Source of the DNA: Chaetoceros tenuissimus
Taxonomy: Eukaryota > Bacillariophyta > Thalassiosirophyceae > Chaetocerotales > Chaetocerotaceae
Reading direction: 5' to 3'
Assembly: GCA_021927905.1 (NCBI GenBank)
Contig: BLLK01000047.1
Location: 3,782,001 to 3,846,000, forward strand
Length of the DNA: 64,000 nt
Shown: positions 12,820-62,760 of the stretch, one piece after another
Numbering within the stretch: the stretch's first letter is position 1
Layout of the letters: each line of letters starts with the position of its first letter
Notes under the pieces: model-generated
What the model saw: only the letters and a program-made list of their open reading frames with translations
Databases searched by the model: none
Told to the model about the DNA's origin: nothing
Position numbers and translations under genes: made by a program

Positions 12820-13185
12820 GTTTGATATTGTATAATATATGAAGCTTTCTTTGGACTACTGATCAAGTTAGCAGATGTGCTTTCTAATTCCATTGATACA
12901 AAGTTACTTTTGCCATTCATTTTGTTGCCATGCTCTTTTTGCGGCTGTGAGATAATTTTTGTGTCAGGTTGGGATCTATTTATATGGCTATGTGTATATC
13001 TTTTACTCGTGGCTATAGAAAAAGGCTTCGCATTGATGTGAATATTTGACAGGCCATCATCGATGCACTTCTCCTTTTTCAGTGTTGTTTGTTCCATCTT
13101 CCATAGATGCAACATAAAATTGAAAGAAGTCAACCATTTCTTCTTTCTATTCCTCCCTCTGCTGTGATAGAAAACTACCTATAAC
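12820..13185. promoter_or_regulatory. Shared divergent promoter region (MRPL1 / PCCB)
   Basis: 366 bp separate the two start codons of divergently transcribed genes that both encode mitochondrial proteins. No specific element was recognised. The role follows only from position. Confidence 0.5.
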
Positions 13186-15112
13186 ATGATTAGATCCTTG
13201 ACTACGTCCTCTCATCACTGGAAGCATCTCCTTGCTCGCTCCAGTCGTATCTCATCCTCTCAACAATATATCGCATCTTTTGCTTCGTTTGCAGCAGTTT
13301 CACCTGAATTAGAACACGAACCCTCACAAGTCAAGTCGCAATTCAGAGATGCGCTAGCTGAACATCGTGAAAAGGCACTAAAGGGTGGTGGAGAGAAACG
13401 TATCGCAAAGCAACATGCAAAAGGATCTCTTACTGCTCGTGAACGTCTTTCGCTATTATTTGATCATGACACCTTTCAAGAACTCGATCAGTTCAAAGTA
13501 CATAGAACTCAAGAGTTTGGAATGGATAAGGAAGAAAATAAGATTCCTGGTGATGGTGTTGTCACTGGTCATGGGAAAGTGAATGGTAAAACTGTCTTTG
13601 CGTTTTCTCAGGATTTTACTGTTTTTGGAGGGAGTTTGAGTGAGACTCATGCACAAAAGATTTGTAAAGTTATGGAGATGGCGGTGAGAGTGGGTGCTCC
13701 TGTGATTGGATTGAATGATTCTGGTGGAGCAAGAATTCAGGATGGTATTGATTCTCTTGCTGGTTGTAAGTACTTTCACTTTGAATTTGGTTTCTCTTGA
13801 TGAATTCTTTTCATCTACGAATCTAGGTACTCACATGTGTACTCTGAAACCGATAGATGCCGATGTATTTCAAAGAAATGTAGATGCAAGTGGAGTAGTA
13901 CCTCAATTGTCTGTAATTATGGGACCATGTGCTGGAGGCGCTGTGGTACGTTCTTGGAAATTTTGTTACCTATATATTCTGTCTTTGCAAACTTTATTTA
14001 ACAGTACATGATCCTTCAAATAGTATTCCCCGGCGATGACAGATTTTATTTTCATGGTAGAAGAAACCAGTTACATGTTTGTCACCGGTCCTGAAGTAGT
14101 AAAGACTGTTACAAATGAAGTAGTCACAAAAGAAGAACTTGGAGGAAGTTCTGTACATACTGTCAAGAGTGGAGTAGCTCACGATTGTTTCCCAAATGAT
14201 ATCATGGCGATTCGGGCAATGAGAACTTTGTTGGATTTGTTGCCTAGTTCCAATGATGCATCGACTGTGCCTCGAAAACAATCTACGGACGATCCAAATC
14301 GCTTGGTTCCTAGTCTAGAGCAAATGGTTCCAGATGATCCGAATCTAGCCTACGATATAAAATCTGTTATTGGAGAAGTTGTAGATAATAAGGAATTCTT
14401 TGAGCTTATGCCCAATCATGCCAAGAACATTGTCACTGGGTTTGCGAGAATGGATGGAAGGACTGTGGGAATAGTTGGAAACAACCCAATGACTTTGGCA
14501 GGTTGTCTAGATATTGCCTCTTCTACAAAAGGTGCAAGGTTTGTTCGCTTCTGCAATGCATTCAATATTCCTATTGTTACCTTTGTCGATGTTCCAGGAT
14601 TTTTACCAGGAACAAACCAAGAGCATGGGGGTATCATTCGAAATGGTGCAAAATTACTATTTGCCTATGCAGAAGCTACAGTTCCAAAGATTACTGTGAT
14701 TACAAGAAAAGCATATGGAGGAGCGTATGATGGTAAGTGCGTCATTTTGTTACAGTAAATATCAGTATTCAGTACATTGATTTCCTGACCTCATCGATGC
14801 GATTCTTATAATACAGTAATGGCAAGTAAGCATCTTCGTTCCGATACTAACTATGCTTGGCCGGGAGCAGAAATAGCAGTCATGGGTGCGAAAGGCGCAG
14901 CTGAAATTATTTTTAGAGGAAAAGATATTGAGAAGAACACTCAAGACTACGTAAAGAGATTTGCAAATCCAATGGTAGCTGCTCAACGTGGTTTTATTGA
15001 TGATATAATTGAACCAGCTACTACTCGTGCTGTTATTTGCAGAGACTTGGAAATGCTTGACACCAAGAAAGTGGATTTGATCAAACGTAGAAATAGTAAC
15101 ATTCCACTCTAA
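13186..15112 (+). CDS. PCCB: Propionyl-CoA carboxylase beta subunit, mitochondrial (4 exons)
   Basis: Carboxyltransferase half of propionyl-CoA carboxylase (propionyl-CoA to methylmalonyl-CoA, for odd-chain fatty acid and branched amino acid breakdown). Exons 13186-13765, 13857-13945, 14024-14732 and 14817-15112 give 557 aa, close to the family's usual ~540. A Ser/His/Arg-rich N-terminus fits a mitochondrial presequence. Visible family motifs are [80 protein letters not shown] and GAKGAAEI. Intron boundaries are set by restoring these motifs (SLAG^YADVFQ, GAV^YSPA, YD^VMASK). Intron 2 (13946-14023) is a near-exact copy of an intron in the next gene. Acetyl-CoA or methylcrotonyl carboxylases are less likely given these motifs. 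Confidence 0.95.
13946..14023 (+). repeat. Introner-like intron copy A (PCCB intron 2)
   Basis: 78-nt GT-AG intron (gtacgttcttgg...ccttcaaatag). Over its whole length it equals the 80-nt intron at 16201-16280 read on the other strand, except for 2 fewer t residues before the inner aacag. Similarity stops exactly at both splice sites. Here it splits the gene between codons (phase 0, GTG^TAT). An inner aacag (near 13999-14003) could act as an alternative acceptor, but the conserved YSPA motif requires the outer aatag. Confidence 0.95.
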
Positions 15113-15364
15113 CTTTTTAATGCTGGTATTCTGATTCGAAAAGTAGCTCACTTAACTGTAAGCTAGAGGCCTGATATGTGTACTGACATAATAATCCTTG
15201 ATGAGTACCACCTAGGTTGAGAAGACGATTCGAAAGAGAGTGTTTGCGTTGATTGTCTGTTGACTTGGGCCGAAAGGAAAGTTTTTTTATGATTCAGAAG
15301 TAATAAGCAAAGTAACTAAGTAATAATTATTATTTCTTTAAATTGTAGAAAAAGTTGAAGCTTC
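15113..15364. other. Convergent 3' region between PCCB and receptor gene
   Basis: The 3' ends of two facing genes, 252 bp apart. AT-rich with no distinct element recognised. Confidence 0.5.
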
Positions 15365-17574
15365 TTATTTTGATTCCTCCGATCCAGCCTCGTCAGAATC
15401 TTCCTGGAGTACTGAAAGCCTAGGCTTAGGATTGTCATCCCATTTGGAGTCACTATCTTCTGAGAGATCTGTGGGGAGTTCAATGTTGTAATACTCCCGT
15501 CCTTGATTGCTTGCCGATTCCACAGACGGAGATTGAAATGATAAACCATCATATAAAGACCATTGAGTAGGTTTCTCTTGTTTCTCTTGCTCGTCAGTGG
15601 TTTCTCCAGTAGATGGAGATATTTCTCCTTCATCAATTCTGTGATCAGACTTATTTTGTATCTCAATACCGCTAATGTCAAAAGTCATTTGTTCCGAAAT
15701 AACTTCTTTTGAAAATAGCAAGGTCCTGATGGCCGAACAGTTACTAAGAGATGCATCAGAATCTCGAAGTAAAACTACCTTATGGTATACAAAGATCAAC
15801 ATATTCCATAAGCCGTGCGAAGGTATAGTGATCCTGTGAAAGATTTCCATTGCATAAGTTTGATCATTGAAACGAATTCCATCACTCACAGTAATTGTGA
15901 ATGGTACCCACGTAATCATGAATGCAGCAATATACATTAGAGCTTGTTTCATGATTGTTCGTGTTTGTTTCAGTTTCAAGAGATTGTTATCTTTTGAATC
16001 TAGAGAAGCATTACCGTTGTTCATACCATTTATTTCCTTTTCATTTCGAAATATGATAAAAATGATGATGCACATGGATATTACAATGATACCAAGAAGA
16101 ACCCCGCAAAAAATCACCAAAGCAAGTGCCAGCGATCCAAATGAAGTGGTTCTATCCCAAAAGTTCGGCCAGGTATTCATCGAACAGAAAGGTTCGTATA
16201 CTATTTGAAGGATCATGTACTGTTAAAAATAAAGTTTGCAAAGACAGAATATATAGGTAACAAAATTTCCAAGAACGTACCATTTGGATGGATGAAATCA
16301 TTTGCCAAAGCATAAATTGCAAAAGTCAAACCTAGCCCAAGGGCTAAACATAATACCAAAGGTTCGAAAAATCTTTGAATCTTGGATTCTGTTACTTTTG
16401 AAGCCACCAATACATAGTACATGCTTAAAGCAGTACTAAATGAGCTTGAAACAATAGTTCCCACCAATATTAGAAAACCTTGTAGCCTGCATGTACTTTG
16501 ATTACCATAGAATCCGTACTCGAAAATTCCAGCAAGCGGCCCGTATTCAGACGCATCTTTAGGGATCATCAAAGTAGTCAAAGACATTGATAATGCACCG
16601 ATAATATCAAAGAAACTGACGGCAGTCATGATCCGATGATAGGTCGAATTCAACTTTTCCAAAGATTTGAAGAAAATAACATAAAGAACAAGCATTGATG
16701 AAAGCACCGAGATCAAACCAATCACAATGGTGAGTACTATATCCGTCAATGTCAACCCTACAAGACTTCCACCTTCGCATGTATTGCACATGTCTCCTTC
16801 GCAATAATTACATTGATCAAATTCTGCCCAGTCTGGTAAACCCTGTTTTACAACATCACACGAAAAATTGGTAAAGTCATTATCAATTTTTGGTATACAA
16901 CCGTACGCGGATGTAAACTCATCGTCGTTAAAACTTCCGGAGAAACTTGAAGAGATAGAATTGAGTATGATAATATGAAAGCTATTTTTTTTTCTAAAAT
17001 CTGATGAAACTTACCAATGATTGATATCTTTAAAGCAGGGAAAGCCCAAAGTAGTCAAAGTAGTTTCTTTGCAGCTCACAAGTCCCTCATCGAATCCGTT
17101 GTCCATATCAACATCTTCATTGCAAGATAAGAGATTCGTCTTGTCTAAATTTTCGCATACATTGCAGTCATTCGTATCGCAATAACTGCATGTCACGTTC
17201 ATTCCAAAATATCCAGAGTATGAATGTTGAGCGAAATTCCAGCATGCATAGTCAGTCAGGTCTTTTCTGACGCATCCGACTCCCTGTTTGAAGAGTTGAC
17301 CTTCTCCTCCATGTGCTTGTATGTTAAGAGTCATGCACTGGTGCGTTTCAGTGTCACATGGCTCCCCAGTAGCTGTTACTGAAGTTGATGCTGCGCATGG
17401 ATGGTCGAGGTCATTACTAACACATGTGAGAGGTTCAGCATGAGCTATGGCTGTGCAAAGAAGCACCACCAGTAAGAGCAACTCGGTGGCACTCCACTGA
17501 CGAGCCGATCTCTTACTCATGGTAATAGTCGTCCATCGTTTAGGTTTCATGTGCATGAGAAGAATCATGTTCAA
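15365..17574 (-). CDS. Seven-transmembrane (GPCR-like) receptor with Cys-rich ectodomain (3 exons)
   Basis: Exons 17574-17015, 16945-16281 and 16200-15365 give about 686 aa. A hydrophobic signal segment (about residues 30-46) leads into a Cys-rich extracellular region of roughly 200 residues (CSYCDTNDCNVC, CNYCEGDMCNTCEG). Seven membrane segments follow: about TM1 TLTDIVLTIVIGLISVLSSM, TM2 at TAVSFFDIIGALSMSL, TM3 at LQGFLILVGTIVSSSFS, TM4 at LVLCLALGLGLTFAIY, TM5 at LALALVIFCGVLLGIIV, TM6 at ALMYIAAFMITWVPF, TM7 at GLWNMLIFVYHKV. A Ser/Glu-rich cytoplasmic tail closes it. The topology matches cAMP/secretin-like receptors of protists; the ligand is unknown. Intron 1's acceptor could be 16946 or the next AG about 10 nt on; both keep frame. 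Intron 2 (16201-16280) duplicates PCCB intron 2. Confidence 0.82.
16201..16280 (-). repeat. Introner-like intron copy B (receptor intron 2)
   Basis: 80-nt GT-AG intron, identical to PCCB intron 2 apart from a 2-nt (tt) insertion. It interrupts codon GTA after its first base (AAT G^TA TAC, phase 1), unlike the phase-0 copy in PCCB. Flanking exons share no similarity beyond TG^TAT at the junction. Each copy is in the sense orientation of its own host gene, so the two form an inverted pair about 2.2 kb apart. Confidence 0.95.
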
Positions 17575-18784
17575 TAGAATTTGCTAGAGGATTATATAAC
17601 TGGGCTCTCTTGTGTCGACAGCTAGCTACTAGTCTAATCAAAAGTGCTTGCAGTTTTCTCAACATTCGATTTTCACACGTTATCTTCATATCCTAATCGA
17701 TGAAGTACCGCTGCATTATTTATTGTCAACACATGACTGCAGTCATTGTTACGGTAATTTTAGTCAATCTATGACCTATTTTTCTTGAGTAATGAATGTT
17801 TGACTTGTTTAGGACATTTTGTGTATTCTCCTTTTCTTCTTTAGTAGCTCTGCGGTACTCGGTAAAAGAAGAAGTTAAAATTAGTTCGTAAAACAGATTT
17901 ATCATTATCATTTTTAAATGGTTTTGAAGTCTGGTTCTCCAATGTATATTCTACAATTAAAAATATCCACCTTCAGTATTATGTGAGAATGATTGCATGT
18001 GGTCTCTATTGATCCTTTATTTTTTATACTTTGCTCTTGAGGTCATGATTAAATATTGGTGTGGCCCTGTTTTACGTGCTATCGTAACGCTGTCTTGGTT
18101 AGAGCAAAGGTCTGTCTCCTGACTATATGGATAGGCTTTAGTGAAGCGCGTCACCACTTTCGCTTCACTTCGGGTTCTCGATATCCTTGTATTTGCACCT
18201 TTTTGGTTGTTTTGGTGTATCTTATAGTTTAGAATCTATCTAGTAATAACAAGTGTGTTTTCACCTATTCATAGCGATATCTTATTAGTTTACAAGTAAG
18301 TACACGAATATTTAGTCAGTCAAGGATATTTCATGTATCTAATATCTAATATTTGAGGCAACTAGAGGTCAAGGATATTTCATATATCTAATATTTAATA
18401 TTTGAGGCAACTACCATACACTAAGTCCTCCAAAGGATAGGTAAGTTCTTTCATCTTTCATTCCTTTCTTCTTTTTCCTTTTCTTGAAACCTGCAATGAT
18501 AAATTCAGGACCGGTCCCCTAATAAGTAGTACCATGGTACAATTTCAATTTGAAGAACGATTGGATTCAAATCCATGCTTATGTACGTAAAATATGTCCT
18601 TCAACTTCATTGATTGAAATTCAGTTAAGAAATTGAAGTTAATTCGAGTGAATCTTTTCCAAAGTTCTGTAAGCACATGTATTATTTTTATCACTTTTCT
18701 TTCATAGCAATGGAGGTAGAATGCGGCTGAAGCTGTAAGTTCCCTACCGATAGACAAAATAACACTATAAGAATACTTTTATCG
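17575..18784. other. 1.2-kb intergenic region
   Basis: Promoter side of the receptor gene and 3' side of the ankyrin gene. Apart from the direct repeat at 18320-18413 nothing is recognised. A box-B-like ggattcaaatcc near 18553 lacks the rest of a tRNA. Confidence 0.5.
18320..18413. repeat. 45-bp tandem direct repeat
   Basis: Units 18320-18364 and 18369-18413 start tcaaggatatttcat and end tttgaggcaacta. They differ at two positions and are separated by gagg, so the period is 49 bp. AT-rich minisatellite-like duplication, function unknown. Confidence 0.85.
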
Positions 18785-32375: not shown

Positions 32376-33365
32376 ATGACTAGAAACAACCATATATTTT
32401 TCTACTACCCCAAAGTAACCAAGAAATGTAAAAGGCAATCTTTCTCAGAAAGTATTTTGGACAAGGAAGTATCAATGAGTTTTCAACACGATGCACAGCT
32501 ACCAAGAATCATAGAAAATACAATTGATGATGAAGGTGTCACAAGTAGACATGGTTCCTTAACTCGATCTACTCGTATTTCATCATTAAGAAATAGAATA
32601 TTGAAAGAATTCGAGGAGCAGCAAAATATTGCAAAGAAACGTTCGCCTCAATCGTTGTCACCAAAAGAAAAGAATCGCTATGAGATTCTTGTCATTATGG
32701 AAGGAGTAACATTCATAGAAAACAGTGCCTTTGCTGGCTTCAAGAAGTTGCAAATTGTTATCATGTCCAGTACAGTCAAGAGAATTGGAAGGTTTGCATT
32801 TTGTGGTTGTGAGAAATTGACTCAAATACTATGGTCGACAAATCTTGAAGTGATTGAATACAGCGCTTTTTATCTGTGCAAATCTCTCCGTGAAGTATTT
32901 CTTCCTCCGAGCTGTCGACAGGTTCATGCGAATGTCTTTCAACATTGTAAGAATCTTGTGATGTTTGTGTATCCTTTTGGAGTAAATCTGAGCTGGTGGC
33001 TCTTTGGCAATACGAAAATAGAAAAGATATCTCCCATCGGAGAATACATTGCACCAGACGTAGAAGAGGAGGAAGATGACGAATACTACGATGAGAATTA
33101 CAACAGGCAGGTTCATGAGTGGTTGAGAAGTGTGCATGATGATTATCCTCTCCATGCAGCTTGTAAAAGCTATGATCCAAGTATGGAGCAGATATTTGCA
33201 ATTGTATCTGAGCGCGGCCTTGCTTCTTTGTATGTTAGGGATATATTTGGACTTACTGGATTGGATTACCTTGACGCTAATCAGTTTACTAGTGTTGGTG
33301 AGGTAGACATTGCTCGATATTTTGTGATGCGTATGATGGGCGAAGTTCTAGTTGGTCAAACATGA
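32376..33365 (+). CDS. LRR (BspA-type) protein, full-length array copy 1
   Basis: 329 aa. The first ~105 residues are basic and Ser-rich, with no signal peptide. Residues about 108-205 are BspA/LRR_5-type repeats: VTFIENSAFAGFKKLQIVIM, VKRIGRFAFCGCEKLTQI, LEVIEYSAFYLCKSLREVFL and a VHANVFQHCKNLVMF repeat, each ~23 residues. The C-terminal part (about 245-329) has an acidic stretch, then an ankyrin-like HDDYPLHAACKSYDPSMEQI. Such LRR plus ankyrin-like proteins form large families in diatoms; ligand and role are unknown. Only this copy has the N-terminal 107 residues; from residue 100 on it lies inside the 2.89-kb repeat. It differs from copies 2-5 by Cys instead of Phe in the FCG motif. Confidence 0.85.
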   Translation: MTRNNHIFFYYPKVTKKCKRQSFSESILDKEVSMSFQHDAQLPRIIENTIDDEGVTSRHGSLTRSTRISSLRNRILKEFEEQQNIAKKRSPQSLSPKEKNRYEILVIMEGVTFIENSAFAGFKKLQIVIMSSTVKRIGRFAFCGCEKLTQILWSTNLEVIEYSAFYLCKSLREVFLPPSCRQVHANVFQHCKNLVMFVYPFGVNLSWWLFGNTKIEKISPIGEYIAPDVEEEEDDEYYDENYNRQVHEWLRSVHDDYPLHAACKSYDPSMEQIFAIVSERGLASLYVRDIFGLTGLDYLDANQFTSVGEVDIARYFVMRMMGEVLVGQT

Positions 33366-33867
33366 CCTTGCGAAAGGAGCTGGTAGTGAGCTCTAGAGTA
33401 CTGAATGACTTTCGAAACATATCGGCAAGCAATAAAGAATAGTTGTAGTTGTCTATGTCATTACGTATAGTAGTATTCTATATATAACGCACAAACTTTT
33501 GAAAACACTTGAAGAAGTTGTCGAAGAGTTGTTCTTCGCATTTGATATGGTAGAATTAATGATGTCCCAAGTCATTAATCAATGCTTACATGACCATAGT
33601 CGAAGTTTCAAAGAGGGAAAGAAAGATCAGTATAGTTTTTCTAATTTCAATTCTTATACAATTATTCTATGTCAGTAAGTAAAGTGTGTTTTGCCATGTA
33701 TATTCCTGTTTTTATCCTAAGTTTGTTTTGTCAAATCTGTTTTTGTTTGTTTCTATTCGGTAGATAATGAAGGCTTTGGTTGATTATAACATATACCAAT
33801 GTATGAGCATATCAGCCGTCGACCTCTCACTCTGTCCACAGAAGAAACAACGATAAACCATTCAACC
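33366..33867. other. Convergent spacer between LRR and 374-aa gene (repeated in every unit)
   Basis: About 500 bp of 3' flank shared by all five units. It contains the T/G marker (33530 in unit 1) that separates U3/U5 from the rest. No gene seen. Confidence 0.6.
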
Positions 33868-34992
33868 TTACTCGCGATTGCGAAGCTTTGGCGACTTTGG
33901 AGACTTGGAGGTCTTTGGAGACTTGGAAGCCTTTGTAGACTTAGACTTGGCTACCTTAGTCACAGTAGGTACACTAGTACACTTGGAAAAGAGAGAGACT
34001 GGCTCTGGCCAATCATGGCCCTCCAATTTACGCTTGGAGTTTGCTGATGATACATCCTTCTCTGGATTCTTCTTCTGTTGCTGTTGCTTTGGTTGGTAGT
34101 TGGAAGCTTTCTTGTTTGCTGCCATCTTACGTTTTGGGTCATCAGAAGGTGCAGTGTCATATCCGTCTTCATAATAATGAATCATAGGGATCTCGTCCAT
34201 GGTAACAGTAGATGTTGTAATGATAGTAGCAATCTCCTTGTCAGTACATGCATTTTTCTTTGGGACACATGCGTAACGGTTTCTGAACTCAACATAAGGG
34301 ATGCATACATCGAGAGGGAATGGTCCATAGTTTGGTTCATCGGTTCTTCTAGCCTTTGATGAGTCATCGATCTTATCATTTGCTAACTTGCGGTCACCAG
34401 AGCCGCTGGAGTCATCACCGTGACCATATCCACCACCGCACTGGTTATAGGATTGATAACTATACATTTCAAACCAATTCTTGATTGCATAAGGATGAAG
34501 ATATCCATAACGGTAAAGTCCAGGAGCCTTGAGAAGATTAGCAGCTGGTGCAAATGTTCTAAACCAATAGGAAGACTCAGCATCCATAGTGACAGTTCCA
34601 TCCAAGGTGACATATTCTCCTCCAGCATCCTTACAGATTTCATAGCCCATGTCTTCAAACATTTCGATACCTTCATGAACCATGAAGTTTGAATAATAAA
34701 GTTTTCTCTCTCCTCCATTCTCACTAGCATCCATTTCAGGACCACCATAATTGAATTCAACAAGAGGAGTACCAGTAGTCGCTGAAGCATCATTGAAACG
34801 GTTCTCAACTCCAAAGAAGTCAAACTCTGCAAGGCCTTCAAAGCACTTTTGGGATACACCATGTACTTCTCCCATTGTAACGCCATACATCTCACGTGGA
34901 CTGAGGCCATCATACATGAGAGTATAAAAGAAATCGTGAACAGTTGGAGGTAGCTGAAATTGAGTAGCAACGCAGGGGGTGTAGGGTGGCAT
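33868..34992 (-). CDS. Unknown protein with C-terminal KSPK repeats, array copy 1
   Basis: 374 aa, single exon. No signal peptide or membrane segment (starts MPPYTPCVATQFQLPP). The first 200 residues look like a folded, aromatic-rich domain (HDFFYTLMYDGLSP, WFRTFAPAANLL, GLYRYGYLHPYAIKNWFEMY). A Gly/Ser-rich stretch and a Cys-containing DVCIPYVEFRNRYACVPKK segment follow. The C-terminus is low-complexity: Gln/Lys-rich, then SKSTKASKSPKTSKSPKSPK. Three RKL motifs (about residues 96, 202, 333) recall RXL processing sites of diatom cell-wall proteins, but without a signal peptide this is speculative. I do not recognise the family. It points away from the LRR gene's 3' end (convergent) and is the one intact gene in every unit. 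Confidence 0.82.
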   Translation of the reverse strand: MPPYTPCVATQFQLPPTVHDFFYTLMYDGLSPREMYGVTMGEVHGVSQKCFEGLAEFDFFGVENRFNDASATTGTPLVEFNYGGPEMDASENGGERKLYYSNFMVHEGIEMFEDMGYEICKDAGGEYVTLDGTVTMDAESSYWFRTFAPAANLLKAPGLYRYGYLHPYAIKNWFEMYSYQSYNQCGGGYGHGDDSSGSGDRKLANDKIDDSSKARRTDEPNYGPFPLDVCIPYVEFRNRYACVPKKNACTDKEIATIITTSTVTMDEIPMIHYYEDGYDTAPSDDPKRKMAANKKASNYQPKQQQQKKNPEKDVSSANSKRKLEGHDWPEPVSLFSKCTSVPTVTKVAKSKSTKASKSPKTSKSPKSPKLRNRE

Positions 34993-35584
34993 GTTTTCGT
35001 TTTAGTAGTGTAAAGAAAGAAATGTAGACTTGGATCAATTGAATTGATTGAATTGATTTGGATCAATTGCGGTTATGCTTTTGCAAATGTTGATTTTATG
35101 AGATGAAAGTGAAGCTCAAATCATCTCAAATGAAAGATTTTGAGAAGGATATGCATCGCCAAAAAGTGAAGCAGCAGCAAGCCTAACTGCCCAATGACAT
35201 TTGACTTTTGAGTCGTTAGAGGCATAATTGCCCTTCAAACTGGATTGACTCATCTGTTGACATTTTCAATCTGGGAATGGATTGACGATTTTTTGCAACC
35301 TGGATCACTTACTTGATGTAGATATATTAGATGTTGAAGCTGGAATCAAAGGTATCTTTCTTATGGTTGGAGTTATTTGCTGCATTCCATCTCTATTGTT
35401 TTGAGCAGTTTGGAGTTGCTTGATATTTTGTGATGTGTATGATGGAAGTGGTTCCTTGTAGGTCAAGTATGAATAAAAAGAAGCTGAAGAGTAGCTAAAA
35501 GCCGAACTACTACCAGGAGTTACATGACTAGATATCTCCATCACAAAAAGAAAAGAAGAGAATCGCTATGAGATTCTTGTCATT
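34993..35584. other. Unit spacer with decayed LRR 3' end
   Basis: Promoter side of the 374-aa gene, with a ttgattgaattgattt run near 35036-35060, then a stretch at 35417-35486 matching the LRR gene's last ~50 coding bases (gatattttgtgatg.gtatgatgg...ggtcaa.tatga) with stops and indels. The same spacer recurs in units 2-4. A 79-aa minus frame here is not convincing. Confidence 0.65.
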
Positions 35585-36253
35585 ATGGAAGGAGTAACAT
35601 TCATAGAAAACAGTGCCTTTGCTGGCTTCAAGAAGTTGCAAATTGTAATCATGTCCAGTACAGTCAAGAGAATTGGAAGGTTTGCATTTTTTGGTTGTGA
35701 GAAATTGACTCAAATACTATGGTCGACAAATCTTGAAGTGATTGAATACAGCGCTTTTTATCTGTGCAAATCTCTCCGTGAAGTATTTCTTCCTCCGAGC
35801 TGTCGACAGGTTCATGCGAATGTCTTTCAACATTGTAAGAATCTTGTGATGTTTGTGTATCCTTTTGGAGTAAATCTGAGCTGGTGGCTCTTTGGCAATA
35901 CGAAAATAGAAAAGATATCTCCCATCGGAGAATACATTGCACCAGACGTAGAAGAGGAGGAAGATGACGAATACTACGATGAGAATTACAACAGGCAGGT
36001 TCATGAGTGGTTGAGAAGTGTGCATGATGATTATCCTCTCCATGCAGCTTGTAAAAGCTATGATCCAAGTATGGAGCAGATATTTGCAATTGTATCTGAG
36101 CGCGGCCTTGCTTCTTTGTATGTTAGGGATATATTTGGACTTACTGGATTGGATTACCTTGACGCTAATCAGTTTACTAGTGTTGGTGAGGTAGACATTG
36201 CTCGATATTTTGTGATGCGTATGATGGGCGAAGTTCTAGTTGGTCAAACATGA
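35585..36253 (+). pseudogene. 5'-truncated LRR gene, array copy 2
   Basis: 222 aa, equal to residues 108-329 of copy 1 except FFG for FCG. The amplification junction removed the first 107 codons and the promoter. The frame upstream of the ATG meets TGA within 20 codons, with no earlier ATG. It could be transcribed from sequence in the spacer, but is more likely a passenger pseudogene. Confidence 0.8.
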
Positions 36254-36755
36254 CCTTGCGAAAGGAGCTGGTAGTGAGCTCTAGAGTACTGAATGACTTT
36301 CGAAACATATCGGCAAGCAATAAAGAATAGTTGTAGTTGTCTATGTCATTACGTATAGTAGTATTCTATATATAACGCACAAACTTTTGAAAACACTTGA
36401 AGAAGTTGTCGAAGAGTTGTTCTTCGCATTTGATATGGTAGAATTAATGATGTCCCAAGTCATTAATCAATGCTTACATGACCATAGTCGAAGTTTCAAA
36501 GAGGGAAAGAAAGATCAGTATAGTTTTTCTAATTTCAATTCTTATACAATTATTCTATGTCAGTAAGTAAAGTGTGTTTTGCCATGTATATTCCTGTTTT
36601 TATCCTAAGTTTGTTTTGTCAAATCTGTTTTTGTTTGTTTCTATTCGGTAGATAATGAAGGCTTTGGTTGATTATAACATATACCAATGTATGAGCATAT
36701 CAGCCGTCGACCTCTCACTCTGTCCACAGAAGAAACAACGATAAACCATTCAACC

Positions 36756-37880
36756 TTACTCGCGATTGCGAAGCTTTGGCGACTTTGGAGACTTGGAGGT
36801 CTTTGGAGACTTGGAAGCCTTTGTAGACTTAGACTTGGCTACCTTAGTCACAGTAGGTACACTAGTACACTTGGAAAAGAGAGAGACTGGCTCTGGCCAA
36901 TCATGGCCCTCCAATTTACGCTTGGAGTTTGCTGATGATACATCCTTCTCTGGATTCTTCTTCTGTTGCTGTTGCTTTGGTTGGTAGTTGGAAGCTTTCT
37001 TGTTTGCTGCCATCTTACGTTTTGGGTCATCAGAAGGTGCAGTGTCATATCCGTCTTCATAATAATGAATCATAGGGATCTCGTCCATGGTAACAGTAGA
37101 TGTTGTAATGATAGTAGCAATCTCCTTGTCAGTACATGCATTTTTCTTTGGGACACATGCGTAACGGTTTCTGAACTCAACATAAGGGATGCATACATCG
37201 AGAGGGAATGGTCCATAGTTTGGTTCATCGGTTCTTCTAGCCTTTGATGAGTCATCGATCTTATCATTTGCTAACTTGCGGTCACCAGAGCCGCTGGAGT
37301 CATCACCGTGACCATATCCACCACCGCACTGGTTATAGGATTGATAACTATACATTTCAAACCAATTCTTGATTGCATAAGGATGAAGATATCCATAACG
37401 GTAAAGTCCAGGAGCCTTGAGAAGATTAGCAGCTGGTGCAAATGTTCTAAACCAATAGGAAGACTCAGCATCCATAGTGACAGTTCCATCCAAGGTGACA
37501 TATTCTCCTCCAGCATCCTTACAGATTTCATAGCCCATGTCTTCAAACATTTCGATACCTTCATGAACCATGAAGTTTGAATAATAAAGTTTTCTCTCTC
37601 CTCCATTCTCACTAGCATCCATTTCAGGACCACCATAATTGAATTCAACAAGAGGAGTACCAGTAGTCGCTGAAGCATCATTGAAACGGTTCTCAACTCC
37701 AAAGAAGTCAAACTCTGCAAGGCCTTCAAAGCACTTTTGGGATACACCATGTACTTCTCCCATTGTAACGCCATACATCTCACGTGGACTGAGGCCATCA
37801 TACATGAGAGTATAAAAGAAATCGTGAACAGTTGGAGGTAGCTGAAATTGAGTAGCAACGCAGGGGGTGTAGGGTGGCAT
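36756..37880 (-). CDS. Unknown KSPK-repeat protein, array copy 2
   Basis: 374 aa, no difference from copy 1 seen. Its own upstream region (to about 38150) is carried within the repeat, so this copy should be expressible, unlike the truncated LRR frame beside it. Confidence 0.82.
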   Translation of the reverse strand: MPPYTPCVATQFQLPPTVHDFFYTLMYDGLSPREMYGVTMGEVHGVSQKCFEGLAEFDFFGVENRFNDASATTGTPLVEFNYGGPEMDASENGGERKLYYSNFMVHEGIEMFEDMGYEICKDAGGEYVTLDGTVTMDAESSYWFRTFAPAANLLKAPGLYRYGYLHPYAIKNWFEMYSYQSYNQCGGGYGHGDDSSGSGDRKLANDKIDDSSKARRTDEPNYGPFPLDVCIPYVEFRNRYACVPKKNACTDKEIATIITTSTVTMDEIPMIHYYEDGYDTAPSDDPKRKMAANKKASNYQPKQQQQKKNPEKDVSSANSKRKLEGHDWPEPVSLFSKCTSVPTVTKVAKSKSTKASKSPKTSKSPKSPKLRNRE

Positions 37881-38472
37881 GTTTTCGTTTTAGTAGTGTA
37901 AAGAAAGAAATGTAGACTTGGATCAATTGAATTGATTGAATTGATTTGGATCAATTGCGGTTATGCTTTTGCAAATGTTGATTTTATGAGATGAAAGTGA
38001 AGCTCAAATCATCTCAAATGAAAGATTTTGAGAAGGATATGCATCGCCAAAAAGTGAAGCAGCAGCAAGCCTAACTGCCCAATGACATTTGACTTTTGAG
38101 TCGTTAGAGGCATAATTGCCCTTCAAACTGGATTGACTCATCTGTTGACATTTTCAATCTGGGAATGGATTGACGATTTTTTGCAACCTGGATCACTTAC
38201 TTGATGTAGATATATTAGATGTTGAAGCTGGAATCAAAGGTATCTTTCTTATGGTTGGAGTTATTTGCTGCATTCCATCTCTATTGTTTTGAGCAGTTTG
38301 GAGTTGCTTGATATTTTGTGATGTGTATGATGGAAGTGGTTCCTTGTAGGTCAAGTATGAATAAAAAGAAGCTGAAGAGTAGCTAAAAGCCGAACTACTA
38401 CCAGGAGTTACATGACTAGATATCTCCATCACAAAAAGAAAAGAAGAGAATCGCTATGAGATTCTTGTCATT

Positions 38473-39141
38473 ATGGAAGGAGTAACATTCATAGAAAACA
38501 GTGCCTTTGCTGGCTTCAAGAAGTTGCAAATTGTAATCATGTCCAGTACAGTCAAGAGAATTGGAAGGTTTGCATTTTTTGGTTGTGAGAAATTGACTCA
38601 AATACTATGGTCGACAAATCTTGAAGTGATTGAATACAGCGCTTTTTATCTGTGCAAATCTCTCCGTGAAGTATTTCTTCCTCCGAGCTGTCGACAGGTT
38701 CATGCGAATGTCTTTCAACATTGTAAGAATCTTGTGATGTTTGTGTATCCTTTTGGAGTAAATCTGAGCTGGTGGCTCTTTGGCAATACGAAAATAGAAA
38801 AGATATCTCCCATCGGAGAATACATTGCACCAGACGTAGAAGAGGAGGAAGATGACGAATACTACGATGAGAATTACAACAGGCAGGTTCATGAGTGGTT
38901 GAGAAGTGTGCATGATGATTATCCTCTCCATGCAGCTTGTAAAAGCTATGATCCAAGTATGGAGCAGATATTTGCAATTGTATCTGAGCGCGGCCTTGCT
39001 TCTTTGTATGTTAGGGATATATTTGGACTTACTGGATTGGATTACCTTGACGCTAATCAGTTTACTAGTGTTGGTGAGGTAGACATTGCTCGATATTTTG
39101 TGATGCGTATGATGGGCGAAGTTCTAGTTGGTCAAACATGA
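38473..39141 (+). pseudogene. 5'-truncated LRR gene, array copy 3
   Basis: 222 aa with the same 5' truncation and the Phe variant as copy 2. Its 3' spacer carries the G marker (about 39308) found otherwise only in unit 5. Confidence 0.8.
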
Positions 39142-39643
39142 CCTTGCGAAAGGAGCTGGTAGTGAGCTCTAGAGTACTGAATGACTTTCGAAACATATCG
39201 GCAAGCAATAAAGAATAGTTGTAGTTGTCTATGTCATTACGTATAGTAGTATTCTATATATAACGCACAAACTTTTGAAAACACTTGAAGAAGTTGTCGA
39301 AGAGTTGGTCTTCGCATTTGATATGGTAGAATTAATGATGTCCCAAGTCATTAATCAATGCTTACATGACCATAGTCGAAGTTTCAAAGAGGGAAAGAAA
39401 GATCAGTATAGTTTTTCTAATTTCAATTCTTATACAATTATTCTATGTCAGTAAGTAAAGTGTGTTTTGCCATGTATATTCCTGTTTTTATCCTAAGTTT
39501 GTTTTGTCAAATCTGTTTTTGTTTGTTTCTATTCGGTAGATAATGAAGGCTTTGGTTGATTATAACATATACCAATGTATGAGCATATCAGCCGTCGACC
39601 TCTCACTCTGTCCACAGAAGAAACAACGATAAACCATTCAACC

Positions 39644-40768
39644 TTACTCGCGATTGCGAAGCTTTGGCGACTTTGGAGACTTGGAGGTCTTTGGAGACTT
39701 GGAAGCCTTTGTAGACTTAGACTTGGCTACCTTAGTCACAGTAGGTACACTAGTACACTTGGAAAAGAGAGAGACTGGCTCTGGCCAATCATGGCCCTCC
39801 AATTTACGCTTGGAGTTTGCTGATGATACATCCTTCTCTGGATTCTTCTTCTGTTGCTGTTGCTTTGGTTGGTAGTTGGAAGCTTTCTTGTTTGCTGCCA
39901 TCTTACGTTTTGGGTCATCAGAAGGTGCAGTGTCATATCCGTCTTCATAATAATGAATCATAGGGATCTCGTCCATGGTAACAGTAGATGTTGTAATGAT
40001 AGTAGCAATCTCCTTGTCAGTACATGCATTTTTCTTTGGGACACATGCGTAACGGTTTCTGAACTCAACATAAGGGATGCATACATCGAGAGGGAATGGT
40101 CCATAGTTTGGTTCATCGGTTCTTCTAGCCTTTGATGAGTCATCGATCTTATCATTTGCTAACTTGCGGTCACCAGAGCCGCTGGAGTCATCACCGTGAC
40201 CATATCCACCACCGCACTGGTTATAGGATTGATAACTATACATTTCAAACCAATTCTTGATTGCATAAGGATGAAGATATCCATAACGGTAAAGTCCAGG
40301 AGCCTTGAGAAGATTAGCAGCTGGTGCAAATGTTCTAAACCAATAGGAAGACTCAGCATCCATAGTGACAGTTCCATCCAAGGTGACATATTCTCCTCCA
40401 GCATCCTTACAGATTTCATAGCCCATGTCTTCAAACATTTCGATACCTTCATGAACCATGAAGTTTGAATAATAAAGTTTTCTCTCTCCTCCATTCTCAC
40501 TAGCATCCATTTCAGGACCACCATAATTGAATTCAACAAGAGGAGTACCAGTAGTCGCTGAAGCATCATTGAAACGGTTCTCAACTCCAAAGAAGTCAAA
40601 CTCTGCAAGGCCTTCAAAGCACTTTTGGGATACACCATGTACTTCTCCCATTGTAACGCCATACATCTCACGTGGACTGAGGCCATCATACATGAGAGTA
40701 TAAAAGAAATCGTGAACAGTTGGAGGTAGCTGAAATTGAGTAGCAACGCAGGGGGTGTAGGGTGGCAT
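39644..40768 (-). CDS. Unknown KSPK-repeat protein, array copy 3
   Basis: 374 aa, same sequence as copies 1 and 2. Downstream in the unit spacer (41087) this unit has lost 4 bp (actt), as has unit 5. Confidence 0.82.
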   Translation of the reverse strand: MPPYTPCVATQFQLPPTVHDFFYTLMYDGLSPREMYGVTMGEVHGVSQKCFEGLAEFDFFGVENRFNDASATTGTPLVEFNYGGPEMDASENGGERKLYYSNFMVHEGIEMFEDMGYEICKDAGGEYVTLDGTVTMDAESSYWFRTFAPAANLLKAPGLYRYGYLHPYAIKNWFEMYSYQSYNQCGGGYGHGDDSSGSGDRKLANDKIDDSSKARRTDEPNYGPFPLDVCIPYVEFRNRYACVPKKNACTDKEIATIITTSTVTMDEIPMIHYYEDGYDTAPSDDPKRKMAANKKASNYQPKQQQQKKNPEKDVSSANSKRKLEGHDWPEPVSLFSKCTSVPTVTKVAKSKSTKASKSPKTSKSPKSPKLRNRE

Positions 40769-41356
40769 GTTTTCGTTTTAGTAGTGTAAAGAAAGAAATG
40801 TAGACTTGGATCAATTGAATTGATTGAATTGATTTGGATCAATTGCGGTTATGCTTTTGCAAATGTTGATTTTATGAGATGAAAGTGAAGCTCAAATCAT
40901 CTCAAATGAAAGATTTTGAGAAGGATATGCATCGCCAAAAAGTGAAGCAGCAGCAAGCCTAACTGCCCAATGACATTTGACTTTTGAGTCGTTAGAGGCA
41001 TAATTGCCCTTCAAACTGGATTGACTCATCTGTTGACATTTTCAATCTGGGAATGGATTGACGATTTTTTGCAACCTGGATCACTTGATGTAGATATATT
41101 AGATGTTGAAGCTGGAATCAAAGGTATCTTTCTTATGGTTGGAGTTATTTGCTGCATTCCATCTCTATTGTTTTGAGCAGTTTGGAGTTGCTTGATATTT
41201 TGTGATGTGTATGATGGAAGTGGTTCCTTGTAGGTCAAGTATGAATAAAAAGAAGCTGAAGAGTAGCTAAAAGCCGAACTACTACCAGGAGTTACATGAC
41301 TAGATATCTCCATCACAAAAAGAAAAGAAGAGAATCGCTATGAGATTCTTGTCATT

Positions 41357-42025
41357 ATGGAAGGAGTAACATTCATAGAAAACAGTGCCTTTGCTGGCTT
41401 CAAGAAGTTGCAAATTGTAATCATGTCCAGTACAGTCAAGAGAATTGGAAGGTTTGCATTTTTTGGTTGTGAGAAATTGACTCAAATACTATGGTCGACA
41501 AATCTTGAAGTGATTGAATACAGCGCTTTTTATCTGTGCAAATCTCTCCGTGAAGTATTTCTTCCTCCGAGCTGTCGACAGGTTCATGCGAATGTCTTTC
41601 AACATTGTAAGAATCTTGTGATGTTTGTGTATCCTTTTGGAGTAAATCTGAGCTGGTGGCTCTTTGGCAATACGAAAATAGAAAAGATATCTCCCATCGG
41701 AGAATACATTGCACCAGACGTAGAAGAGGAGGAAGATGACGAATACTACGATGAGAATTACAACAGGCAGGTTCATGAGTGGTTGAGAAGTGTGCATGAT
41801 GATTATCCTCTCCATGCAGCTTGTAAAAGCTATGATCCAAGTATGGAGCAGATATTTGCAATTGTATCTGAGCGCGGCCTTGCTTCTTTGTATGTTAGGG
41901 ATATATTTGGACTTACTGGATTGGATTACCTTGACGCTAATCAGTTTACTAGTGTTGGTGAGGTAGACATTGCTCGATATTTTGTGATGCGTATGATGGG
42001 CGAAGTTCTAGTTGGTCAAACATGA
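41357..42025 (+). pseudogene. 5'-truncated LRR gene, array copy 4
   Basis: 222 aa, same truncation and Phe variant as copies 2 and 3. Spacer markers match unit 2. Confidence 0.8.
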
Positions 42026-42527
42026 CCTTGCGAAAGGAGCTGGTAGTGAGCTCTAGAGTACTGAATGACTTTCGAAACATATCGGCAAGCAATAAAGAAT
42101 AGTTGTAGTTGTCTATGTCATTACGTATAGTAGTATTCTATATATAACGCACAAACTTTTGAAAACACTTGAAGAAGTTGTCGAAGAGTTGTTCTTCGCA
42201 TTTGATATGGTAGAATTAATGATGTCCCAAGTCATTAATCAATGCTTACATGACCATAGTCGAAGTTTCAAAGAGGGAAAGAAAGATCAGTATAGTTTTT
42301 CTAATTTCAATTCTTATACAATTATTCTATGTCAGTAAGTAAAGTGTGTTTTGCCATGTATATTCCTGTTTTTATCCTAAGTTTGTTTTGTCAAATCTGT
42401 TTTTGTTTGTTTCTATTCGGTAGATAATGAAGGCTTTGGTTGATTATAACATATACCAATGTATGAGCATATCAGCCGTCGACCTCTCACTCTGTCCACA
42501 GAAGAAACAACGATAAACCATTCAACC

Positions 42528-43670
42528 TTACTCGCGATTGCGAAGCTTTGGCGACTTTGGAGACTTGGAGGTCTTTGGAGACTTGGAGGTCTTTGGAGAC
42601 TTGGAAGCCTTTGTAGACTTAGACTTGGCTACCTTAGTCACAGTAGGTACACTAGTACACTTGGAAAAGAGAGAGACTGGCTCTGGCCAATCATGGCCCT
42701 CCAATTTACGCTTGGAGTTTGCTGATGATACATCCTTCTCTGGATTCTTCTTCTGTTGCTGTTGCTTTGGTTGGTAGTTGGAAGCTTTCTTGTTTGCTGC
42801 CATCTTACGTTTTGGGTCATCAGAAGGTGCAGTGTCATATCCGTCTTCATAATAATGAATCATAGGGATCTCGTCCATGGTAACAGTAGATGTTGTAATG
42901 ATAGTAGCAATCTCCTTGTCAGTACATGCATTTTTCTTTGGGACACATGCGTAACGGTTTCTGAACTCAACATAAGGGATGCATACATCGAGAGGGAATG
43001 GTCCATAGTTTGGTTCATCGGTTCTTCTAGCCTTTGATGAGTCATCGATCTTATCATTTGCTAACTTGCGGTCACCAGAGCCGCTGGAGTCATCACCGTG
43101 ACCATATCCACCACCGCACTGGTTATAGGATTGATAACTATACATTTCAAACCAATTCTTGATTGCATAAGGATGAAGATATCCATAACGGTAAAGTCCA
43201 GGAGCCTTGAGAAGATTAGCAGCTGGTGCAAATGTTCTAAACCAATAGGAAGACTCAGCATCCATAGTGACAGTTCCATCCAAGGTGACATATTCTCCTC
43301 CAGCATCCTTACAGATTTCATAGCCCATGTCTTCAAACATTTCGATACCTTCATGAACCATGAAGTTTGAATAATAAAGTTTTCTCTCTCCTCCATTCTC
43401 ACTAGCATCCATTTCAGGACCACCATAATTGAATTCAACAAGAGGAGTACCAGTAGTCGCTGAAGCATCATTGAAACGGTTCTCAACTCCAAAGAAGTCA
43501 AACTCTGCAAGGCCTTCAAAGCACTTTTGGGATACACCATGTACTTCTCCCATTGTAACGCCATACATCTCACGTGGACTGAGGCCATCATACATGAGAG
43601 TATAAAAGAAATCGTGAACAGTTGGAGGTAGCTGAAATTGAGTAGCAACGCAGGGGGTGTAGGGTGGCAT
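42528..43670 (-). CDS. Unknown KSPK-repeat protein, array copy 4 (380 aa)
   Basis: Differs from the other copies by one extra 18-bp unit (gtctttggagacttggag on the plus strand), adding six residues (KTSKSP) to the C-terminal Lys/Ser/Pro repeat. This is the only protein-level difference seen among the five copies, and shows slippage in the repeat after amplification. Confidence 0.85.
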   Translation of the reverse strand: MPPYTPCVATQFQLPPTVHDFFYTLMYDGLSPREMYGVTMGEVHGVSQKCFEGLAEFDFFGVENRFNDASATTGTPLVEFNYGGPEMDASENGGERKLYYSNFMVHEGIEMFEDMGYEICKDAGGEYVTLDGTVTMDAESSYWFRTFAPAANLLKAPGLYRYGYLHPYAIKNWFEMYSYQSYNQCGGGYGHGDDSSGSGDRKLANDKIDDSSKARRTDEPNYGPFPLDVCIPYVEFRNRYACVPKKNACTDKEIATIITTSTVTMDEIPMIHYYEDGYDTAPSDDPKRKMAANKKASNYQPKQQQQKKNPEKDVSSANSKRKLEGHDWPEPVSLFSKCTSVPTVTKVAKSKSTKASKSPKTSKSPKTSKSPKSPKLRNRE

Positions 43671-44262
43671 GTTTTCGTTTTAGTAGTGTAAAGAAAGAAA
43701 TGTAGACTTGGATCAATTGAATTGATTGAATTGATTTGGATCAATTGCGGTTATGCTTTTGCAAATGTTGATTTTATGAGATGAAAGTGAAGCTCAAATC
43801 ATCTCAAATGAAAGATTTTGAGAAGGATATGCATCGCCAAAAAGTGAAGCAGCAGCAAGCCTAACTGCCCAATGACATTTGACTTTTGAGTCGTTAGAGG
43901 CATAATTGCCCTTCAAACTGGATTGACTCATCTGTTGACATTTTCAATCTGGGAATGGATTGACGATTTTTTGCAACCTGGATCACTTACTTGATGTAGA
44001 TATATTAGATGTTGAAGCTGGAATCAAAGGTATCTTTCTTATGGTTGGAGTTATTTGCTGCATTCCATCTCTATTGTTTTGAGCAGTTTGGAGTTGCTTG
44101 ATATTTTGTGATGTGTATGATGGAAGTGGTTCCTTGTAGGTCAAGTATGAATAAAAAGAAGCTGAAGAGTAGCTAAAAGCCGAACTACTACCAGGAGTTA
44201 CATGACTAGATATCTCCATCACAAAAAGAAAAGAAGAGAATCGCTATGAGATTCTTGTCATT

Positions 44263-44931
44263 ATGGAAGGAGTAACATTCATAGAAAACAGTGCCTTTGC
44301 TGGCTTCAAGAAGTTGCAAATTGTAATCATGTCCAGTACAGTCAAGAGAATTGGAAGGTTTGCATTTTTTGGTTGTGAGAAATTGACTCAAATACTATGG
44401 TCGACAAATCTTGAAGTGATTGAATACAGCGCTTTTTATCTGTGCAAATCTCTCCGTGAAGTATTTCTTCCTCCGAGCTGTCGACAGGTTCATGCGAATG
44501 TCTTTCAACATTGTAAGAATCTTGTGATGTTTGTGTATCCTTTTGGAGTAAATCTGAGCTGGTGGCTCTTTGGCAATACGAAAATAGAAAAGATATCTCC
44601 CATCGGAGAATACATTGCACCAGACGTAGAAGAGGAGGAAGATGACGAATACTACGATGAGAATTACAACAGGCAGGTTCATGAGTGGTTGAGAAGTGTG
44701 CATGATGATTATCCTCTCCATGCAGCTTGTAAAAGCTATGATCCAAGTATGGAGCAGATATTTGCAATTGTATCTGAGCGCGGCCTTGCTTCTTTGTATG
44801 TTAGGGATATATTTGGACTTACTGGATTGGATTACCTTGACGCTAATCAGTTTACTAGTGTTGGTGAGGTAGACATTGCTCGATATTTTGTGATGCGTAT
44901 GATGGGCGAAGTTCTAGTTGGTCAAACATGA
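44263..44931 (+). pseudogene. 5'-truncated LRR gene, array copy 5
   Basis: 222 aa, same truncation and Phe variant. Spacer carries the G marker of unit 3 (about 45098). Confidence 0.8.
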
Positions 44932-45433
44932 CCTTGCGAAAGGAGCTGGTAGTGAGCTCTAGAGTACTGAATGACTTTCGAAACATATCGGCAAGCAATA
45001 AAGAATAGTTGTAGTTGTCTATGTCATTACGTATAGTAGTATTCTATATATAACGCACAAACTTTTGAAAACACTTGAAGAAGTTGTCGAAGAGTTGGTC
45101 TTCGCATTTGATATGGTAGAATTAATGATGTCCCAAGTCATTAATCAATGCTTACATGACCATAGTCGAAGTTTCAAAGAGGGAAAGAAAGATCAGTATA
45201 GTTTTTCTAATTTCAATTCTTATACAATTATTCTATGTCAGTAAGTAAAGTGTGTTTTGCCATGTATATTCCTGTTTTTATCCTAAGTTTGTTTTGTCAA
45301 ATCTGTTTTTGTTTGTTTCTATTCGGTAGATAATGAAGGCTTTGGTTGATTATAACATATACCAATGTATGAGCATATCAGCCGTCGACCTCTCACTCTG
45401 TCCACAGAAGAAACAACGATAAACCATTCAACC

Positions 45434-46558
45434 TTACTCGCGATTGCGAAGCTTTGGCGACTTTGGAGACTTGGAGGTCTTTGGAGACTTGGAAGCCTTT
45501 GTAGACTTAGACTTGGCTACCTTAGTCACAGTAGGTACACTAGTACACTTGGAAAAGAGAGAGACTGGCTCTGGCCAATCATGGCCCTCCAATTTACGCT
45601 TGGAGTTTGCTGATGATACATCCTTCTCTGGATTCTTCTTCTGTTGCTGTTGCTTTGGTTGGTAGTTGGAAGCTTTCTTGTTTGCTGCCATCTTACGTTT
45701 TGGGTCATCAGAAGGTGCAGTGTCATATCCGTCTTCATAATAATGAATCATAGGGATCTCGTCCATGGTAACAGTAGATGTTGTAATGATAGTAGCAATC
45801 TCCTTGTCAGTACATGCATTTTTCTTTGGGACACATGCGTAACGGTTTCTGAACTCAACATAAGGGATGCATACATCGAGAGGGAATGGTCCATAGTTTG
45901 GTTCATCGGTTCTTCTAGCCTTTGATGAGTCATCGATCTTATCATTTGCTAACTTGCGGTCACCAGAGCCGCTGGAGTCATCACCGTGACCATATCCACC
46001 ACCGCACTGGTTATAGGATTGATAACTATACATTTCAAACCAATTCTTGATTGCATAAGGATGAAGATATCCATAACGGTAAAGTCCAGGAGCCTTGAGA
46101 AGATTAGCAGCTGGTGCAAATGTTCTAAACCAATAGGAAGACTCAGCATCCATAGTGACAGTTCCATCCAAGGTGACATATTCTCCTCCAGCATCCTTAC
46201 AGATTTCATAGCCCATGTCTTCAAACATTTCGATACCTTCATGAACCATGAAGTTTGAATAATAAAGTTTTCTCTCTCCTCCATTCTCACTAGCATCCAT
46301 TTCAGGACCACCATAATTGAATTCAACAAGAGGAGTACCAGTAGTCGCTGAAGCATCATTGAAACGGTTCTCAACTCCAAAGAAGTCAAACTCTGCAAGG
46401 CCTTCAAAGCACTTTTGGGATACACCATGTACTTCTCCCATTGTAACGCCATACATCTCACGTGGACTGAGGCCATCATACATGAGAGTATAAAAGAAAT
46501 CGTGAACAGTTGGAGGTAGCTGAAATTGAGTAGCAACGCAGGGGGTGTAGGGTGGCAT
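45434..46558 (-). CDS. Unknown KSPK-repeat protein, array copy 5
   Basis: 374 aa, as copy 1. Upstream of it the repeat leaves the array: similarity to the other spacers holds to about 46917 with a 9-bp gap near 46885, then becomes patchy, so its distal promoter differs from those of copies 1-4. Confidence 0.82.
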   Translation of the reverse strand: MPPYTPCVATQFQLPPTVHDFFYTLMYDGLSPREMYGVTMGEVHGVSQKCFEGLAEFDFFGVENRFNDASATTGTPLVEFNYGGPEMDASENGGERKLYYSNFMVHEGIEMFEDMGYEICKDAGGEYVTLDGTVTMDAESSYWFRTFAPAANLLKAPGLYRYGYLHPYAIKNWFEMYSYQSYNQCGGGYGHGDDSSGSGDRKLANDKIDDSSKARRTDEPNYGPFPLDVCIPYVEFRNRYACVPKKNACTDKEIATIITTSTVTMDEIPMIHYYEDGYDTAPSDDPKRKMAANKKASNYQPKQQQQKKNPEKDVSSANSKRKLEGHDWPEPVSLFSKCTSVPTVTKVAKSKSTKASKSPKTSKSPKSPKLRNRE

Positions 46559-47171
46559 GTTTTCGTTTTAGTAGTGTAAAGAAAGAAATGTAGACTTGGA
46601 TCAATTGAATTGATTGAATTGATTTGGATCAATTGCGGTTATGCTTTTGCAAATGTTGATTTTATGAGATGAAAGTGAAGCTCAAATCATCTCAAATGAA
46701 AGATTTTGAGAAGGATATGCATCGCCAAAAAGTGAAGCAGCAGCAAGCCTAACTGCCCAATGACATTTGACTTTTGAGTCGTTAGAGGCATAATTGCCCT
46801 TCAAACTGGATTGACTCATCTGTTGACATTTTCAATCTGGGAATGGATTGACGATTTTTTGCAACCTGGATCACTTGATGTAGATGTTGAAGCTGGAATC
46901 AAAGGTATCTTTCTATGTTGGATTTTCTAGATACAATCAATCAATTACTATAGTTTTGGGCAGATTAACGTTGCTCTGTATTTTGTGATGTGTATGATGG
47001 GAGAGCTTATGTCGGTCAAGCATGATTATGCAAAAGAAGCTGCTACGAGTAGGTATGTAGCTATTGAGTAACGGCTTCTTGATCTCCTCGCACATTTCAA
47101 GTCTCAATAAGTAACATCATTTGACAGTACACCTATAGTTTGATTCCATAAGCCATGAAATTCACAATTAT
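46559..47171. other. Array exit with second LRR relic
   Basis: After the last unit, 46973-47051 resembles the LRR gene's 3' end (tattttgtgatgtgtatgatggg, then gtcaagcatga and aagaagctg) with about three quarters of bases matching by eye and no open frame. It is a different, independently decayed relic from the one amplified in the spacers. Confidence 0.65.
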
Positions 47172-57735: not shown

Positions 57736-57840
57736 CAGTCTATCCATATCATGCTGAATCAGACTTTGCTTACATTCCATACAATCACTTTCATTTGATT
57801 CTTGATCAGAAATTAATTTTTCATTGGTTTCTAAAGAAAG

Positions 57841-59784: not shown

Positions 59785-59817
59785 ATTTTTAAAAATATAA
59801 TTATTACTTATCATAAT

Positions 59818-62700: not shown

Positions 62701-62760
62701 GATATATTTATTATATGACTAGGAATTGGCAAGTTATTAGGCTCCAATAATTTTGTACAT

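Follow-up and report, generated by a model that had tools for sequence, protein, structure and literature searches.

An intron copied exactly, and probably recently, between two neighbouring genes of Chaetoceros tenuissimus

Introduction

How an intron of one gene comes to stand, without a single substitution, in an unrelated neighbouring gene is the question raised by a locus of the diatom Chaetoceros tenuissimus. The origin of new introns is still disputed, and there are few cases in which the source can be identified and is nearly unchanged. For the pair of introns treated here, one in the gene for the propionyl-CoA carboxylase beta chain (PCCB) and one in a 7TM receptor gene, there is a source, the spacing and orientation of the copies and the junction bases can be read off, and paralogues indicate a likely direction. 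With all of these known, reverse splicing, break repair and introners predict different outcomes that can be checked. Judged by summary descriptions, no diatom case of introners or of intron gain was found in the open-licence literature. The window, that is, the whole stretch of 64,000 nucleotides that was analysed, occupies positions 3782001-3846000 of contig C34 and has a G+C content of 39.4%, and the genome of C. tenuissimus comprises 41,027,912 bases in 68 contigs.

The shared intron and its host genes

The two genes and their introns were located in the window as follows.

13186 to 15112, plus strand: PCCB gene, four exons, 557 aa, identified by a stop-free spliced frame and by Pfam and PDB matches
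13766 to 13856, plus strand: PCCB intron 1, 91 nt, phase 1, single occurrence in the genome
13946 to 14023, plus strand: PCCB intron 2, phase 0, 78 nt long, the shared intron in its likely recipient gene
14733 to 14816, plus strand: PCCB intron 3, 84 nt, phase 1, single occurrence in the genome
15365 to 17520, minus strand: 7TM receptor gene, three exons, 668 aa, N-terminal part cysteine-rich
16946 to 17014, minus strand: receptor intron 1, 69 nt, same site in the C17 and C16 paralogues
16201 to 16280, minus strand: receptor intron 2, phase 1, 80 nt long, the shared intron in its likely donor gene

The identification of PCCB can be regarded as secure, with matches to the Pfam profile PF01039 (E 7.2e-185) and to the solved structure of the mitochondrial PCC beta chain, PDB 7ybu (E 5.8e-223). 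The receptor matches the rhodopsin-type 7TM profile PF00001 at 30.6 bits, barely over the cut-off of 30.5. The two genes are convergent neighbours, PCCB on the plus and the receptor on the minus strand, with their stop codons separated by 252 nt, and their proteins are unrelated, the top BLASTP match between them having E = 1.0.

Intron 2 of PCCB and intron 2 of the receptor show no substitution over 78 common columns from GT to AG, and differ by one 2-nt indel, TTT against TTTTT, within a T run immediately 5' of an AACAG. The BLAST alignment extends over 85 columns, pairing 13944-14026 on the plus strand with 16282-16198 on the minus strand, and its E value within the window (3.8e-34) excludes a chance match. 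Identity continues past the intron ends for two upstream and three downstream exon bases and no further:

13944 to 13945, plus strand: TG, common upstream exon bases, PCCB copy
14024 to 14026, plus strand: TAT, common downstream exon bases, PCCB copy
16281 to 16282, minus strand: TG, common upstream exon bases, receptor copy
16198 to 16200, minus strand: TAT, common downstream exon bases, receptor copy

The insertion phase is 0 in PCCB (GTG^TAT) and 1 in the receptor (G^TA TAC). The copies lie 2,177 nt apart and are inverted, each in the sense orientation of its own gene. An earlier note on this DNA had described two near-identical introns, save for a 2-nt indel, which interrupt TG^TAT in two unrelated genes, the phase differing between them. 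Its intron coordinates proved exact, the alignment ends bear out the TG^TAT interruption, and both reading frames agree with the two phases; its view of a young pair in a diatom genome likewise fits the near-identical sequence and the species. The pair is thus regarded as a real and precise intron copy between neighbours, probably a recent one.

Removal of the intron from both genes

When PCCB is spliced across intron 2, it aligns without a gap to CAGGAVYSPALTDF of 7ybu, so that the splice is required by this homology. Splicing of receptor intron 2 yields a single open frame, whose length is 668 aa when a suitable acceptor is chosen for intron 1 and 680 or 664 aa with the two alternative intron-1 acceptors, and the spliced receptor aligns with its paralogues straight through the intron 2 site. 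Left unspliced, the PCCB frame (read by hand) and the receptor frame both reach the same TGA. Both host frames need removal of the shared intron, and we infer that it is spliced in the cell.

An internal AACAG is present in both copies, with its last base at 14004 in PCCB and at 16220 in the receptor. It had been put forward as an alternative acceptor, of which its presence in both copies holds; as a working in-frame acceptor it fails, since splicing there would leave 19 nt of intron behind and put either gene out of frame. The TTTAAC at this spot looks more like a branch-point region:

13997 to 14002, plus strand: TTTAAC, possible branch-point region of the PCCB copy, where the T run of the indel lies

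The copies folded no better than their shuffles (z 0.38 and -0.09), and no RNA family was found by Rfam at gathering scores in 13000-17600.

Age of the receptor site and direction of copying

Relatives of the receptor match at 77 places in the genome, its own three included. From the 74 matches outside the window, 27 listed loci were examined, two of them in the C17 gene, three in the C16 gene and 22 elsewhere. Those on C17 (41.6% identical) and C16 (37.0%), the closest paralogues of full length, have an intron in the same aligned codon and in the same phase 1, and both carry the site of receptor intron 1 as well. The 22 further paralogue loci among those listed read through without an intron, one with a one-residue gap nearby. 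The intron 2 site therefore belongs to a three-member subfamily, whose members are now 35-42% identical. Since the codon and phase are shared with C17 and C16, and the copies match without substitution, the receptor site is older than the copy and goes back to before these proteins split; from these alignments the site is read as old and the PCCB match as young. An old receptor site makes PCCB the likelier recipient, and most likely the receptor was the donor. Compared against shuffles, the shared intron retains no similarity to the C17 and C16 introns, so this comparison does not separate a donor role of the receptor from replacement of an older intron there.

On the side of PCCB, a carboxyltransferase paralogue at C17:850984-851589 (36% identical) reads through the intron site free of stops, which gives a weak indication that the PCCB intron is recent and not ancient.

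Copy number and frequency of intron copying

A search of the 41.03-Mb genome with the 80-nt sequence returned two copies only, those in PCCB and the receptor. This search skips very common words, and its copy counts are lower bounds; near copies of the 80-mer, had a family existed, should have surfaced despite the skipped words. A 27-mer from the 3' end, allowed up to three mismatches in the same genome, again gave the two copies only (control 0). A 20-mer from the 5' end gave two exact matches plus eight places with three mismatches each; these eight were rejected as further copies, being at the level of the reversed control (7). The 24-nt 3' end had 0 matches among viral contigs. Furthermore, no TSD longer than 1 nt was found (the TSD-like match is 1 nt on the left and 0 nt on the right in both genes) and no TIR, the longest self-reverse-complement word being 8 nt and internal, which argues against a transposon.

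The frequency of such copying was estimated from a sample of 26 introns and candidates, some predicted by a gene finder and others read manually. Two were set aside, the receptor copy and a candidate of low complexity, and the remaining 24 were searched together in a single string. The gene finder gave 20 or 43 introns depending on the penalty setting and missed the receptor introns, which were read by hand, so its candidates are rough. All 24 matched themselves. Apart from PCCB intron 2, which has its second copy in the receptor, 23 are left (10 with support from protein homology, 13 predicted solely by the gene finder; a small and partly rough sample), and an intron-bounded second copy was found for 0 of them. 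This suggests that intron copying is not common genome-wide. An apparent second pair, the gene-finder candidate L050:476-543 with C16:849024-849102, was rejected: the similarity spans 338 bases at 90%, far beyond the candidate, which is therefore a longer repeat and probably no intron. PCCB intron 2 was also compared with PCCB intron 3, and their score was reached by 7.8% of 500 shuffles and taken as chance.

Relation to known systems

Intron transposition is represented, in the review text cited, by 14 unambiguous events in Mycosphaerella and Oikopleura (PMC3443670). The present case resembles these in that a whole intron stands end to end in a second, unrelated gene, in sense and with usable splice sites, and the likely donor intron stands at an established site, occupied in C17 and C16 in the same codon and phase. 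It differs from them, as they are described there, in being one pair in adjacent convergent genes, inverted and with a common 5-nt exon context. Taken broadly, the pair is best classed as intron transposition, of an unusually local and inverted geometry.

Introners as outlined in PMC9860276 have in common with this pair the similarity from splice site to splice site, here exact from GT to AG plus TG and TAT, and dissimilar host proteins, here with E = 1.0. However, the survey that defines introner families set a minimum of four similar introns per genome for a family (PMC9860276), whereas two copies were found here, with no family. The TSD of 3-9 bp and/or TIR of DNA-transposon-type introners, not obligatory for every family, are likewise lacking in this pair.

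Sister (stw)introns of Hypoxylaceae fungi are also highly similar introns in different genes, with no exon bases lost or gained; they are described as numbering in the dozens, carrying terminal inverted repeats and being bordered by patternless exons (PMC8469720), whereas the present pair is limited to two copies, lacks a TIR and has exon bases in common at its borders. For the neointrons of Daphnia, as here, a local event on the DNA itself is suspected. The review portrays them as often having new splice sites and short direct repeats that stem from staggered breaks (PMC3443670), in contrast to the ready-made intron without a terminal repeat in PCCB.

Route of copying

We give roughly even chances to a single recent event in which a ready-made spliceosomal intron was carried from the receptor to PCCB, probably by local copying at the DNA level. 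A strand would have broken or stalled within PCCB exon sequence at TG^TAT, the PCCB strand would have templated on the inverted receptor intron about 2.2 kb off, and rejoining would have proceeded via the 2-nt (TG) and 3-nt (TAT) end matches. Since GT and AG are the exact bounds of the inserted segment, the spliceosome would excise it and leave the protein unchanged, so that selection could retain it.

That the copying took place on DNA is what we infer; a nearby template, 2,177 nt away, and junction matches at both ends agree with this route but are no proof of it. The exon contexts were compared in a set of 24 introns, with two doubtful candidates out and both copies in, giving 276 pairs. 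The last two exon bases are common to 40 of the 276 pairs and the first three to five of them; both contexts are common to one pair, that of PCCB and the receptor. Of the contexts that precede an intron in this set, TG is the most frequent (8 of 24), and the weight of the match therefore falls mainly on TAT. A random landing within 2,177 nt in 41 Mb would be expected about once in 10,000, an argument weakened by ascertainment, since the pair was spotted within 64 kb only, to which the view of the earlier note was confined.

Several other explanations have to be weighed against this one. That the pair belongs to an introner family, as the earlier note had proposed, would mean an intron-making mobile element with two copies, at the very start of its spread or close to extinction. 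The splice-bounded near-identity in unrelated genes and differing phases speaks for it, and the absence of TSD and TIR is tolerated in some families, according to PMC9860276. Against it stand the count of two, with the 27-mer adding none and the 20-mer extras at control level, the lack of a TIR or of a TSD over 1 nt, and the position of the receptor copy at an old intron site, which makes it an ordinary intron by position. The whole-genome search for many further splice-bounded copies, which the note itself had named as its check, was negative; an introner family is not supported, and we consider it very improbable. Intron replacement, in which PCCB had the intron first and the older intron of the receptor was overwritten, or both received it from a third copy since lost, deserves somewhat more weight and is still quite unlikely. 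Overwriting of an old receptor site would look the same, with C17 and C16 introns that are dissimilar to the shared one, but between genes whose proteins are 37-42% identical such a loss of intron similarity would be expected in any case; gene conversion requires homology, and just 5 nt match outside the intron; and the carboxyltransferase paralogue (36%) that reads through the site argues, weakly, against an old intron in PCCB.

Reverse splicing is the more serious competitor, although it too is judged unlikely. An excised receptor intron would have been spliced backwards into PCCB mRNA, and a cDNA made from that mRNA by reverse transcription would then have recombined into the PCCB locus. 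The exact GT and AG ends, the sense orientation in both genes and the missing TSD and TIR are as this route would have them, and the transposition events in Mycosphaerella and Oikopleura lend it precedent (in the part of PMC3443670 cited above). In fact, the exact ends are automatic under reverse splicing, whereas DNA copying needs luck or selection for them. What reverse splicing does not predict is a landing in the adjacent gene and the TG/TAT match seen in one of 276 pairs. Moreover, recombination with a cDNA would be liable to remove PCCB intron 1, which is retained only 89 nt upstream of intron 2, so a recombining tract would have to be short; nor did any of the 23 tested introns occur in another, distant pair. 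The proximity, the inversion and the rare 5-nt context favour local DNA templating over reverse splicing, though not decisively, and local DNA-templated copying is ranked somewhat ahead.

Age of the copy

Local templating of this kind would have a wider consequence, which we put forward tentatively and hold to be rather less than an even call: ready-made introns could be gained by purely local DNA templating with a few exon bases rejoining, without a transposon, reverse transcriptase or reverse splicing, and the PCCB copy would perhaps be young enough to be polymorphic in C. tenuissimus still, and even to differ between the haplotypes of the strain that was sequenced. With 0 substitutions in 78 sites, the divergence of the copies is bounded at 3.8% (95%), which is 2.5 times the heterozygosity of 1.56% given for strain NIES-3715 (PMC8613185), so that segregation of the PCCB copy may continue to this day. 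If gene conversion acted on the pair later, the apparent age would lie below the true age. With a mutation rate of 4.77e-10 per site per generation, which PMC6604790 gives for a different diatom, the bound corresponds by arithmetic to a copy age of at most about 40 million cell generations.

Intron copies and the receptor family

The two intron copies, intron 2 of PCCB (13946-14023, plus strand) and intron 2 of the 7TM receptor gene (16201-16280, minus strand), constitute an inverted repeat of 85 columns, and the approximately 2.2 kb between them contains the 3' portion of each of the two convergent genes. Inversions could be favored by this repeat.

The receptor belongs to a large family, with 77 places in the C. 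tenuissimus genome matching it, several of which are locally clustered, e.g. near 1.95 Mb of contig C27 and near 1.60 Mb of contig C16. An intron at the phase 1 codon position of receptor intron 2 was absent from the examined receptor loci other than the three-member subfamily formed by the window's receptor and its C17 and C16 paralogues. In the C17 paralogue (within C17:863500-869500), the transmembrane part is interrupted by an in-frame TAG, reflecting a pseudogene, an allele or an assembly error.

Other repeats in the window

The 5.6-kb segment at 57431-63065 looks like a DNA transposon with intact ends, since a perfect inverted repeat of 305 bp flanks ORFs matching a DDE-type transposase and an XPG I-region:

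57431-57735, inverted repeat arm
57835-59781, ORF, DDE-type transposase match
59821-62718, ORF, XPG I-region match
62761-63065, inverted repeat arm

At 32663-47055, a unit of about 2.9 kb is repeated five times in tandem, the copies being 98-99% identical to one another, and one unit contains an ORF matching BspA-type leucine-rich repeats (35528-36250).
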